NCBI RefSeq assembly: GCF_000214825.1
Contig: NC_015581.1
Span: 1,860,001-1,924,000, forward strand
DNA from: Thiomicrospira cyclica ALM1
GTDB lineage: Bacteria; Pseudomonadota; Gammaproteobacteria; Thiomicrospirales; Thiomicrospiraceae
Length of the DNA stretch: 64,000 bases
Direction of reading: 5' to 3'
Below are positions 2,273-6,552 of this stretch, in pieces. A program made the translations under genes and the position numbers. The notes under the pieces are model-generated. The model saw only the letters and a program-made list of their open reading frames with translations, did not search any database and was not told the DNA's origin. Positions within the stretch are counted from its first letter, which is position 1. Each line of letters opens with the position of its first letter.

Positions 2273-2878
2273 ATGTTTTACACCACCACCCAACTTGAAG
2301 CCGGCCAGATTTATCAACATCTCGTTGGCGCCATTGTGCCCCGCCCGATTGCGTGGATTAGTACAATCAATGCACAGGGGGTTGCCAACCTGGCGCCCTA
2401 TTCATTTTTTACCGTCGCCAGTGTGAATCCACCGATTTTAGCGGTCAGCCACATTGCGCCACGCCAAAACCATGCTAAAGACACCTTGGCGAATCTGCAC
2501 GAACAGCCAGAATGCGTGGTGAATATTGTCAGCGCCGAACTGGCGGAACAAATGAACGCCAGCTGTGCGGCGGTAGCGAATGACATTGATGAGTTTGAGT
2601 TAGCCCAGATTGCGCGCACCCCCAGCAACCTCGTTAAACCACCCTCCGTGGCCGCCGCTAAAGTCCGTTATGAATGCCGGCTGCGTGAGATTCAACAACT
2701 CTCAGCCGCACCCGCAGGTGGAAGCTTAATTTTGTTGGATGTCGTCGGTATTTATTTAGGTGACGATGTGATTAACCGAGATGGCAAGATTGATGGCACC
2801 CGAATCGATGCCATCGGTAAATTAGGCGGTGATGATTACAGCTATACGCGAGATATCTTTGCGATGGCGCGACCTTAA
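2273..2878 (+). CDS. Flavin reductase-like (FMN-binding split barrel) protein
   Basis: The 201-residue product begins MFYTTTQLEAGQIYQHLVGA and carries IVPRPIAWIST and NLAPYSFFTVASVNPPIL. These are hallmark stretches of the flavin reductase-like / flavoredoxin family, which binds FMN and transfers electrons from NAD(P)H or a partner protein. It has no signal peptide and should be cytoplasmic. An AGGA ribosome site lies ahead of the ATG. It is transcribed convergently with queF, with only about 26 bases between the stops and no clear hairpin. The natural substrate cannot be read from the sequence. Confidence 0.8.
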   Translation: MFYTTTQLEAGQIYQHLVGAIVPRPIAWISTINAQGVANLAPYSFFTVASVNPPILAVSHIAPRQNHAKDTLANLHEQPECVVNIVSAELAEQMNASCAAVANDIDEFELAQIARTPSNLVKPPSVAAAKVRYECRLREIQQLSAAPAGGSLILLDVVGIYLGDDVINRDGKIDGTRIDAIGKLGGDDYSYTRDIFAMARP

Positions 2879-2904
2879 GGTAACTCCCCGCACACTCTGT
2901 ACGA

Positions 2905-3747
2905 CTATTGCCGCACCAAACGCGGCATCACCGCTTCACTTTGGAAGTTACTGCGGAACGGATTAATATCTAGCCCACCGCGACGCACATAACGGGCATA
3001 CACCGTCAAGGCATCAGGCTGGCATTGACGTTGAATGTCACAAAACATCCGTTCAACACACTGTTCATGAAATTCATTATGATCGCGAAACGAAATAATA
3101 TAGCGTAACAAACCCGCCCGATCGATTTTAGGCCCGCGGTAACGAATCACCACCGTACCCCAGTCCGGTTGTCCGGTGACCAAGCAGTTAGATTTAAGCA
3201 AATGACTGTAAAACGCCTCTTCGGCATATTGATTCCCAGCACGTAAAAAGTCCGGATTGACCTGGTAAGTGTCAATCTCTAAATCCTGGAAATCGAGACA
3301 CTCCGCACGGTCAATATCCGACACCAAACAAGGCTCTTGATTCAAACTCGATAGCTGTACTTTAACCTTGCCGCCTGCCACCGCAGACAAATCTCGCTCC
3401 ATAGTGTGTGCTACCGCCGCTTGGCTTTCAAAACGACTGGCGTTGAACGAGTTGAGATACAATTTAAACGATTTGGATTCAATAATATTTGGTGTATCGG
3501 CACGCAGAGTGAACTGTCCCATCGCGACCATTGGCTTGCCTTTCAGGTTCAACCAAGAAATTTCATAGGCATTCCAGACATCCACCCCGGTAAAAGGGAG
3601 TTTTTGTGCATCAATAGCTAATTCATCGCGCTTGGTTTGGCGCGGAATAGGGAATAATAAACCGGCATCGTATTGCTGTGGGTAAACCGTAGTCTTGCCC
3701 AATTGACTAGCAGCCACATCGCCTACTAATACCTTTGCATCACTCAT
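2905..3747 (-). CDS. queF: NADPH-dependent 7-cyano-7-deazaguanine reductase
   Basis: QueF reduces preQ0 to preQ1 in queuosine biosynthesis. At 280 residues this is the long, bimodular type found in gammaproteobacteria. The NADPH/QueF motif ESKSFKLYLNSF is at residues 90-101. The active-site cysteine is Cys188 in SNCLVTGQPDWG with the partner Asp195, matching Cys190/Asp197 of the E. coli enzyme (family knowledge). Start ATG 3747 has GGAG eight bases upstream. It is divergent from a small broken membrane ORF and convergent with the flavin reductase, so it is probably monocistronic. Confidence 0.95.
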   Translation of the reverse strand: MSDAKVLVGDVAASQLGKTTVYPQQYDAGLLFPIPRQTKRDELAIDAQKLPFTGVDVWNAYEISWLNLKGKPMVAMGQFTLRADTPNIIESKSFKLYLNSFNASRFESQAAVAHTMERDLSAVAGGKVKVQLSSLNQEPCLVSDIDRAECLDFQDLEIDTYQVNPDFLRAGNQYAEEAFYSHLLKSNCLVTGQPDWGTVVIRYRGPKIDRAGLLRYIISFRDHNEFHEQCVERMFCDIQRQCQPDALTVYARYVRRGGLDINPFRSNFQSEAVMPRLVRQ

Positions 3748-3831
3748 AGCTTGCGCTCCATAATAAAACTGTCATTATTTTAACATTGCAGATTGCGTAT
3801 CATAATGCGCTTTAAGTACAAAGGCATGTAA

Positions 3832-4029
3832 ATGTTAACCACATTATTTTTAGGGATTTTAGTTACTTTTGGCATCCTAGCGGCACTTTGGCTTTGATTT
3901 ATGCTGGCGCGTAAATACCCTCGCTTTGACAAACTTAACAGCCGCAAAGCCAATCAACGCATGGTGCAATTAACCATGTTGTTTTATGCCTTGGGTTTAG
4001 TATTTACGATTTGGTTAATGTTGCGTTAA
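3832..4029 (+). pseudogene. Small two-helix membrane ORF interrupted by an in-frame TGA
   Basis: ATG 3832 has AAAGG seven bases upstream and opens 21 codons of a hydrophobic helix (MLTTLFLGILVTFGILAALWL). These are followed by TGA at 3895-3897 and then, in the same frame, FMLARKYPRFDKLNSRKANQ and a second hydrophobic helix ending IWLMLR-TAA. Read through, it is a 65-codon helix-loop-helix membrane protein with a basic loop. The second half has its own ATG (3901) but no ribosome site. I do not recognise a family. A single substitution (for example in a TGG, CGA or TAT codon) would explain it. Translational recoding or a sequencing error cannot be excluded. Confidence 0.5.
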
Positions 4030-4037
4030 GCCAACAT

Positions 4038-4062
4038 AAAAAAACCGAGCACTTGGCTCGGT
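4038..4062 (-). terminator. Rho-independent terminator of the TonB-receptor operon
   Basis: Read on the minus strand, CCGAGC-CAAGT-GCTCGG is followed by seven T residues. This is a 6-bp G+C-rich stem with a U tract about 65 bases past the stop of the TonB receptor gene. On the plus strand the hairpin lacks a U tract, so it serves the minus-strand operon. Confidence 0.8.
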
Positions 4063-4127
4063 CAAAGATCTTTAGCGGTCATAACTAAAGAGGGAGGATA
4101 ACAACAATGAAAAAAACTAACTTAACT

Positions 4128-6200
4128 TTAGAACTTATAGCGCGCGCCTAGCTCAAACGATCGTGATGGACCGGCATAAATCCCCTGGCGTAAGCCAGCA
4201 ATATAACGCTCGTCGGTTAGGTTTTTAACCGCACCGAACACATTCAACTGTTTGTTTACATTGAAGTTAGCGGTTAAGTCAGCCGTTGTATGCGCAGCCA
4301 CTTTACCGCCCCAATTACCTGTTTCAGTAACCGTTAACTCTTTATCATTTGCTGCATTACTAAAAAATTCACCGGTGTAGTTAATAAGCAAAGCGGATTG
4401 TACCGTGTCATTTCCATAGCCAAATGCTAGGTTAGCTGTAATTTCTGGCGAGTTTTCAAAACGATTGCCTTTTTCAGCGCCGCCAGAACCACGATCTTCG
4501 CGATATTTAGCTGTTGGAACCCAGGTTACGTTGGTATCAATAGTAAATCCGTTTCTGAAGTCATATCCAAGTGCCGCTTCAATGCCTTGAACTAGAGCAC
4601 TGCCCTCATTCGGTGCTTTAATACCTGAAATACCGGGATCTACTTGGTTTGAAAAATCCATTTGGAAGGCGGTCACTTCATAAGTAAAGCTATTGGCACT
4701 ACCACGAGCGCCAAGCTCAATATTGACCGATTTTTCAGCTTCTGTTGGCGTATCACCAGAACCGATTACACTGCCAACAAGGGGTGGAGAAAATGCCCGA
4801 TATACACTGCCATACAACTGCACTTCAGGAATTAATTGATAGGTTGCACCCAGCCCAGGCATAAACTCGGTATTAGAAAACTTATCTGCTGGGCCTGCAT
4901 TGCGTAAATCGTTACGACGCTGCTCATAGGTTTCCATCCTTAAACCAGCTGTGATCGCTAAACGGTCCGTTACTTCAAATCGATTTTGACCATAGATAGC
5001 AAGACTATCGGCTGAATCAACTCGGTTTCTTGAGGGCGCCCCCGAATTACGTGGTGTCGCTCTAGTTGCTTGAACCGTGACATCCTTCATTTCTTCATTC
5101 ATTAAGGTCAAACCCAACTCAGCCTGATTTTTAATCCCTAAACTATCGTGATTAAACGACAATCTAGTATCAAAACCTTTGCGTTCAAACGAGCGATTGT
5201 TGCCTTGAACAGTATCGTTGTAATTCCAAATCCTTTGACCAGCGCTATTTGTTGTTGTTGCTTGCTGACCGAATCCGTCTTGGTTTCCTAATCTAAAACG
5301 CCAATAATCACGGTTCATTTCACTCCAATAAACCAAAGTTTGAAGCTTCATGTCATTGCTAATATCCCATTCATGGTTAATATCAAAAGCGGTGCGTTCT
5401 GTTAAAAAATAATCATCCGGTGCCGGATTAAATGTCGCTCGTGCTTTATAGGCATTTGGAAACAGCCCACGGTAAGAAATCTTGGCATCATTACTATATT
5501 GACTAAACTTGACACTGATCAATTGATCATCACCAATCGCGGTACCCGACTTGATCATCAAGTCTTCCATGGCATATCCTTTACTTTGGAAACCATCGCT
5601 ATCTGCTTTGGTATAGATCAATCCAAAGAATGAATCACCAGAATAATTGCTACCACCAATTTCTAATGTACCTTCTCGTGTATTCCAGCTACCAACCTTG
5701 CCGGAAATAGCGAAACCATCCTCAGGCGTTTTAGTAATGTAATTTATAACACCACCAATCGTGTTGGGGCCATAGCGGTGGGTGGCACCTTTATGTACCT
5801 CAACTCGCTCCACACGCTGAATACGCGGGTTGTAATAGCGACTGTTCCCCACAAAAATACCTGGTTGAATGGGCACACCATCCTCTAAAACCAAAGTTTT
5901 ATAATCCGATGCGGGTAAACCACGAATACCGACGTTAACAACGACGGCGGTTTCTTCTTCACCTTTCACATGTACGCCAGGCACACGACGAAGGACATCT
6001 TCAGTTGAACGTGGTTGTGCACGCTGAATGTTTTCCTCTGTGACAATCGATACTGCGCCCGGTTGTTTTGTAACCGCATCGTCCCCCTGCCCAATAACAT
6101 CAATACGTGGGAGCTGTTTGGTGTCCGCTAACACGGAAGTAGCCATAGCCACGGCTATACTAATTACCAGGGTTTTAAGCGCCATTTTCTGAGCTGACAT
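4128..6200 (-). CDS. TonB-dependent outer-membrane receptor, FecA-like
   Basis: The 690-residue outer-membrane beta-barrel receptor probably takes up a ferric chelate. A signal peptide of about 25 residues ends ATSVLA-DTK. A TonB-box-like segment follows (RIDVIGQGD), then the plug domain with EENIQRAQPRSTEDVLRRVPGV, NVGIRGLP and VEVHKGATHRYGPNTIGGVINYI, then the barrel ending in LGARYKF with a terminal aromatic residue. The plug resembles FecA (ferric dicitrate) receptors more than heme receptors, but the ligand is not determined by sequence alone. It is the last gene of hemP - Cys-rich protein - receptor, all in one direction, with AAGGAAA ahead of its ATG and a terminator behind it. No fecR/fecI pair adjoins. 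Confidence 0.9.
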   Translation of the reverse strand: MSAQKMALKTLVISIAVAMATSVLADTKQLPRIDVIGQGDDAVTKQPGAVSIVTEENIQRAQPRSTEDVLRRVPGVHVKGEEETAVVVNVGIRGLPASDYKTLVLEDGVPIQPGIFVGNSRYYNPRIQRVERVEVHKGATHRYGPNTIGGVINYITKTPEDGFAISGKVGSWNTREGTLEIGGSNYSGDSFFGLIYTKADSDGFQSKGYAMEDLMIKSGTAIGDDQLISVKFSQYSNDAKISYRGLFPNAYKARATFNPAPDDYFLTERTAFDINHEWDISNDMKLQTLVYWSEMNRDYWRFRLGNQDGFGQQATTTNSAGQRIWNYNDTVQGNNRSFERKGFDTRLSFNHDSLGIKNQAELGLTLMNEEMKDVTVQATRATPRNSGAPSRNRVDSADSLAIYGQNRFEVTDRLAITAGLRMETYEQRRNDLRNAGPADKFSNTEFMPGLGATYQLIPEVQLYGSVYRAFSPPLVGSVIGSGDTPTEAEKSVNIELGARGSANSFTYEVTAFQMDFSNQVDPGISGIKAPNEGSALVQGIEAALGYDFRNGFTIDTNVTWVPTAKYREDRGSGGAEKGNRFENSPEITANLAFGYGNDTVQSALLINYTGEFFSNAANDKELTVTETGNWGGKVAAHTTADLTANFNVNKQLNVFGAVKNLTDERYIAGLRQGIYAGPSRSFELGARYKF

Positions 6201-6276
6201 ATACTTTCCTTGTTTTATATGTACTTGGCTGGCGATAACCTAAGGTTTAGCTGGCTTAGTAGTGGTTAGTTAGTCG

Positions 6277-6552
6277 TTAATTAATTAAGGATTTGATGGT
6301 GGGCAGGTTAGGCCAATGAACAACATGCTTTGACGATGAACTCTGACCTTTTGAGCAGGTCGAACGGGACGGGCATACCGCACAAAGTTGTTGAGCACAG
6401 GTTTGCAGGCATAGCCTTTGCACCTGATCGCGACTGGTGACATCTAGGCAATCGACATCAGCGGCACACAACACCCCAAGCCGAAATAATTCGGCCAATT
6501 TTGCTTCGGAGAGGGCAAGGTGAATCAGGGGGTTATGGATTGGCTGTTTCAT
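6277..6552 (-). CDS. Small cysteine-rich protein between hemP and the TonB receptor
   Basis: The 91-residue product is of a family I do not recognise. Its central part has seven cysteines, spaced as C29, C35, then C48, C52, C57, C60 and C66 (LCLQTCAQQLCAVCPSRSTC). This suggests metal or Fe-S/Zn binding or disulfide switching. No signal peptide is visible, so it is predicted to be cytoplasmic. The ATG has AGGGA six bases upstream, and the gene starts nine bases after hemP, so it is translationally adjacent in the same iron-linked operon. A role in iron or heme handling is inferred only from position. Confidence 0.6.
   Translation of the reverse strand: MKQPIHNPLIHLALSEAKLAELFRLGVLCAADVDCLDVTSRDQVQRLCLQTCAQQLCAVCPSRSTCSKGQSSSSKHVVHWPNLPTIKSLIN

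Follow-up and report, generated by a model that had tools for sequence, protein, structure and literature searches.

An in-frame TGA in a queF-linked gene for a small membrane hairpin protein of Thiomicrospira cyclica is probably a recent nonsense mutation

In the DNA considered here, a 64,000-nucleotide stretch of Thiomicrospira cyclica ALM1 that we call the window, a short reading frame on the forward strand (3832-4029) has the look of a gene for a small two-helix membrane protein and is crossed by a single in-frame TGA. The question that it raises is whether the gene has been broken, whether the TGA is read as an amino acid, or whether one gene has become two; an initial annotation of the DNA had listed a recent nonsense mutation, recoding, and a split gene with a restart at a downstream ATG. 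The host is a sulfur-oxidizing soda-lake bacterium with a genome of one contig (1,932,455 bases); it is called Thioalkalimicrobium cyclicum ALM1 in its published genome paper (PMC4891895), and this species is also named Thiomicrospira cyclica (PMC6501319).

Reading of the frame bears out the description of a 65-codon helix-loop-helix ORF with one in-frame TGA: it consists of MLTTLFLGILVTFGILAALWL (21 residues), the TGA at 3895-3897, which is codon 22, FMLARKYPRFDKLNSRKANQRMVQLTMLFYALGLVFTIWLMLR (43 residues) and a TAA at 4027-4029. The first fragment (3832-3894, 21 codons) is hydrophobic, with a mean Kyte-Doolittle value of 2.33 over 19 residues, and the second, of 42 codons when counted from an ATG at 3901 (3901-4029), holds a basic loop and the second helix. 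The motif AAAGG at 3820-3824 is the likely Shine-Dalgarno sequence of the gene. A ribosome site is present as annotated, but it is only fair and not good: the stretch upstream of ATG 3832 pairs with the anti-Shine-Dalgarno sequence at -3.2 kcal/mol, a value that 22% of 3000 random positions equal, and 43% of the 42 long ORFs of the window, an uncurated set in which the first ATG was taken as the start, score no better.

Sequence comparison identifies 3832-4029 as the orthologue of a real family of small hairpin proteins that is found in Thiomicrospira and related genera and is often linked to queF. The first search, in which the window's protein with X at the stop position served as the query, covered 57 genomes (nine of the genus, among them that of the window, a further 27 of the family and a further 21 of the class) and gave matches in 20 of them: the window itself, 18 intact orthologues, and one weak match in G053 (E 0.004, two stops) that was excluded from the codon counts and alignments. 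All 18 intact orthologues lie within the window's taxonomic family, and they include all eight of the other genomes of the genus. A profile (A1) was built without the window's sequence from 17 of these 18 copies, two sister orthologues sharing one protein of which one was used, and the window's copy matches it over positions 1-64 (E 2.1e-28, 99.5 bits). Across 62 genomes of the order, a profile search found 25 copies in 24 genomes (E 2.7e-34 to 2.7e-22); 24 copies are uninterrupted, and the window's alone has an internal stop. Additionally, a scan of named genomes gave 13 loci in Thiomicrospira, Hydrogenovibrio, Thiomicrorhabdus and related metagenome bins, and 11 of these together with the window's copy make up a further set (A2), from which L087 and L092 were left out. 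The loci of the three surveys share genomes, and their counts are not summed here.

The usual frame in this family runs uninterrupted for about 64-68 codons; the window's copy is orthologous over all 65 codons and departs from this pattern in the TGA at codon 22. Its two nearest relatives are 89% identical to it in protein sequence, and neither the 57-genome search nor the profile search of the order found a second copy in the window's genome. Homology to the intact orthologues and to the copies across the order thus upholds the earlier view that both halves are coding. One copy, L115 in G060, is diverged (80.3 bits); it has alanine at codon 22, lacks the LW motif that usually precedes this codon, and possibly represents a distinct subfamily.

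We found no curated family name for the small hairpin protein in Pfam or NCBIfam. When read through the stop, the window's protein has no match over the cut-off in Pfam (best 14.9 bits versus 26.6) or in NCBIfam (best 13.9 versus 135), and 17 orthologues, judged by E-value, gave scattered weak Pfam matches, the best at E 0.0012 to DUF6249, which appeared in 6 of the 17. By sequence, the PDB yielded no convincing relative among four matches up to E 10, the best of which (E 0.04) was the 31-residue PufZ; a Foldseek search of the PDB likewise yielded no convincing relative in fold, with three matches and a best E of 6.6.

AlphaFold2 modeled the window's protein, read through the TGA as Trp, as a helical hairpin with helices at residues 2-28, 30-36 and 38-64; the best model reached a mean pLDDT of 90.8 and a pTM of 0.64, and the other four a mean pLDDT of 72.6-80.1. 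The TGA had been placed after the first helix, but the model puts it inside, at residue 22 of a helix that spans residues 2-28. The intact protein would reside in the inner membrane, and the positive-inside rule would place its basic loop on the cytoplasmic side.

The divergent neighbor of the gene in the window is queF (2905-3747, minus strand, 280 aa), the product of which matches NCBIfam TIGR03138 at 404.9 bits (cut-off 293.45), in agreement with Pfam. This arrangement is often conserved beside the family: at 24 of 32 loci, a set in which some genomes are counted twice, queF lies upstream on the opposite strand, approximately adjacent in 21 and approximately 2 kb away in three (L084, L086 and a fragment in L088), and at the other eight it was not seen within the fetched flanks of 1.5 or 3 kb. 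The window's copy therefore shares with the queF-linked hairpin family of Thiomicrospira, Hydrogenovibrio and Thiomicrorhabdus its divergent queF as well as its sequence. Directly after the small gene, the window carries a gene for a TonB-dependent receptor (4128-6200). In the relative G007, the small gene is separated from a TonB-receptor-like gene by a ferritin gene (Pfam PF00210, 125.8 bits; L078:6560-7102), which is missing at 4030-4128 of the window. A stretch of about 75 bases at 4035-4110, with a minus-strand hairpin that leads into a run of T and a GGAGG-ATG stretch, resembles the G007 sequence by eye despite the different next genes; the hairpin and its T run are likely the terminator of the minus-strand neighbor.

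The residue that relatives carry at the site of the TGA bears directly on what this codon is. At codon 22, the 25 copies of the order have glycine in 22, serine in one, alanine in one and TGA in one, the window's; the 18 intact copies of the 57-genome search have glycine in 17 and serine in one, the 13 named loci glycine in 12 and serine in one, and both nearest relatives use GGC. This alignment, which the initial annotation had named as a check, reveals that all 24 other copies have a sense codon at this site and supports the nonsense mutation that had been proposed. A conserved sense codon has become a stop, and on the sequences compared the change from Gly to TGA looks like a glycine codon hit by a nonsense mutation and is unlike a selenocysteine site or a Trp-coded TGA.

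We believe, with a probability of roughly 0.8, that the small gene is a recent nonsense pseudogene, one still in the making, of a dispensable small gene. In an ancestor of the strain, translation from 3832 would have given the conserved hairpin membrane protein of 65 residues, and a recent change would have introduced TGA at codon 22, which is glycine in nearly all relatives. Translation begun at 3832 would now be terminated at 3895 by release factor 2, yielding a hydrophobic peptide of 21 residues; as this peptide has neither the conserved basic loop nor the second helix, the function of the protein would be lost. The peptide itself is presumably useless, and the gene would be dispensable here, as in relatives that do not carry it. 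What was observed in favor of this interpretation is the intact family, the glycine at the site, the presence of release factor 2 (RF2) and the lack of any sign of machinery for recoding. Ordinary bacterial nonsense pseudogenes similarly have a single stop at a conserved position where relatives have a sense codon, and are similarly not found in many relatives; unlike them, the window's gene has a new ATG three bases past the stop.

The distribution of the gene fits one that can be lost. The profile search gave no match in 38 of the 62 genomes of the order; among the 50 good-quality genomes (completeness of 90% or more, contamination of 5% or less), 28 were without one. queF was present in all 14 genomes in which it was searched for, 12 without the small gene and two with it; beside queF, in 845 to 1,629 bases on one strand, nothing above 3.0 bits was found in any of the 12, and the two positive controls scored 99 and 102 bits. 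An absence this clean is in keeping with a losable gene, although some lineages may never have had it.

Counting against a pseudogene are the strong conservation of the second half, the new ATG immediately past the stop, and the fact that one genome of the species was compared. Relative to G007, the window's copy has 6 silent and 3 replacing differences in codons 1-21 and 18 silent and 4 replacing in codons 23-65; relative to G002, the counts are 8 and 3, and 18 and 6. So few replacements in codons 23-65 have a binomial probability of approximately 1e-9 (G007) or 1e-8 (G002) under no constraint. A crude clock, based on the G007 count and not on the 6 of G002, sets 4 replacements against approximately 61 expected, which would leave the second half unconstrained for approximately 6.5%, and at most approximately 15%, of the branch of this lineage. 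The 14 differences between G002 and G007 are all silent, and the window's lineage thus has the looser record. The excess of silent over replacing changes after the TGA therefore suggests that either the stop is recent or codons 23-65 are still in use, conservation being expected also if the second half is still translated; the counts fit either reading.

Of the alternatives to a recent pseudogene, the one that survives best is a functional split gene, in which ribosomes would stop at the TGA and restart at ATG 3901, and the two single-helix pieces would assemble as a substitute for the hairpin. We consider it unlikely, and we regard it as improbable that two translation-coupled one-helix peptides of 21 and 42 residues still assemble and work; the translation-coupled split gene is a minority reading. 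The restart codon is codon 24, three bases past the TGA, and it is new, because none of the other 24 copies has methionine at this position; the codon is ATT in both sister genomes, and four of the six other copies of the genus have isoleucine. The restart that had been proposed thus gains from an ATG unique to the window's copy, but the anti-Shine-Dalgarno pairing upstream of it (-1.7 kcal/mol) is at chance level, since 48% of random positions are as good, and pairing this weak or weaker is seen in only 21% of the 42 long ORFs. Changed residues cluster near the TGA, with four of seven within five codons (permutation p 0.011, or 0.009 when weighted by family variability), and when only the changes judged to be derived in the window's copy are counted, three of four fall within four codons (p 0.013), all of these tests being post hoc. 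Codon 25, for example, is leucine in the window and glutamine in both sisters and in five of the six other genus copies. This clustering favors a restart but is only suggestive, because codons 24 and 25 belong to the more variable positions of the family (six residues each in 17 sequences), so that changes there are expected; moreover, the change at codon 21 more likely occurred in the sisters, since five of the six other genus copies have leucine, as in the window. Purifying selection on codons 23-65 agrees with a second half that is still made, but it can equally mean a young stop, given the upper bound of the clock. A restart at 3901 keeps its small share of probability because, as a review states, reinitiation is regarded as a frequent event among prokaryotes (PMC5972666).

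It is also conceivable, and in our view very unlikely, that the TGA reflects an error of sequencing or a mutation confined to the culture that was sequenced. The comparison with one genome of the species speaks for such an origin, whereas an error at the TGA is unlikely because the published genome paper gives a coverage of approximately 1,559x and an error rate of less than 1 in 100,000 (PMC4891895). The same paper lists 19 pseudogenes in the ALM1 genome (PMC4891895).

The weakest alternative, that the TGA is read as Trp or selenocysteine to give a full-length protein, is close to excluded, and we rejected it on the residues at codon 22, the searches for SelB, tRNA and RF2, and the RNA fold. 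Bacterial selenoproteins share with the window's gene an in-frame TGA between conserved halves, and the open frame on both sides of the stop agrees with recoding; selenocysteine sites are often Cys in homologues, but neither Cys nor Trp occurs at codon 22 in any of the 24 other copies. Unlike such genes, the window's has no SelB over the cut-off in its genome (best 186.6 bits versus 242.25); the same search also matched in 14 of 14 control genomes, over the cut-off in two, and the sub-threshold matches likely stem from other elongation factors. Nor was a tRNA-Sec confirmed there: one of eight matches exceeded the cut-off (48.1 bits versus 47), and ARAGORN identified it as a tRNA-Ser with the anticodon TGA, in a search that matched in 14 of 14 controls and exceeded the cut-off in five. 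A code in which TGA is Trp would be marked by a tRNA-Trp with a TCA anticodon and by loss of RF2. The genome has 41 tRNA matches in Rfam, and among the 35 distinct tRNA sequences that ARAGORN gave for loci covering all 41, none has a TCA, CTA or TTA anticodon; the single tRNA-Trp has CCA, and RF2 (prfB) is present at 505.3 bits (cut-off 370). TGA also terminates 6 of the 42 uncurated long ORFs of the window, shuffled sequences fold as well as the RNA around the TGA (z -0.33), and no Rfam family matched at its gathering score in 2800-6300.

If the small gene is a broken gene, as we believe, it is an ordinary case, another instance of a sulfur oxidizer losing a small gene. It nevertheless points to a conserved family of small membrane proteins, often encoded beside queF, for which we saw no curated family match over a cut-off. 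If it were true that both halves are made, the locus would show, in compact and natural form, how a stop and a restart can divide a membrane hairpin.
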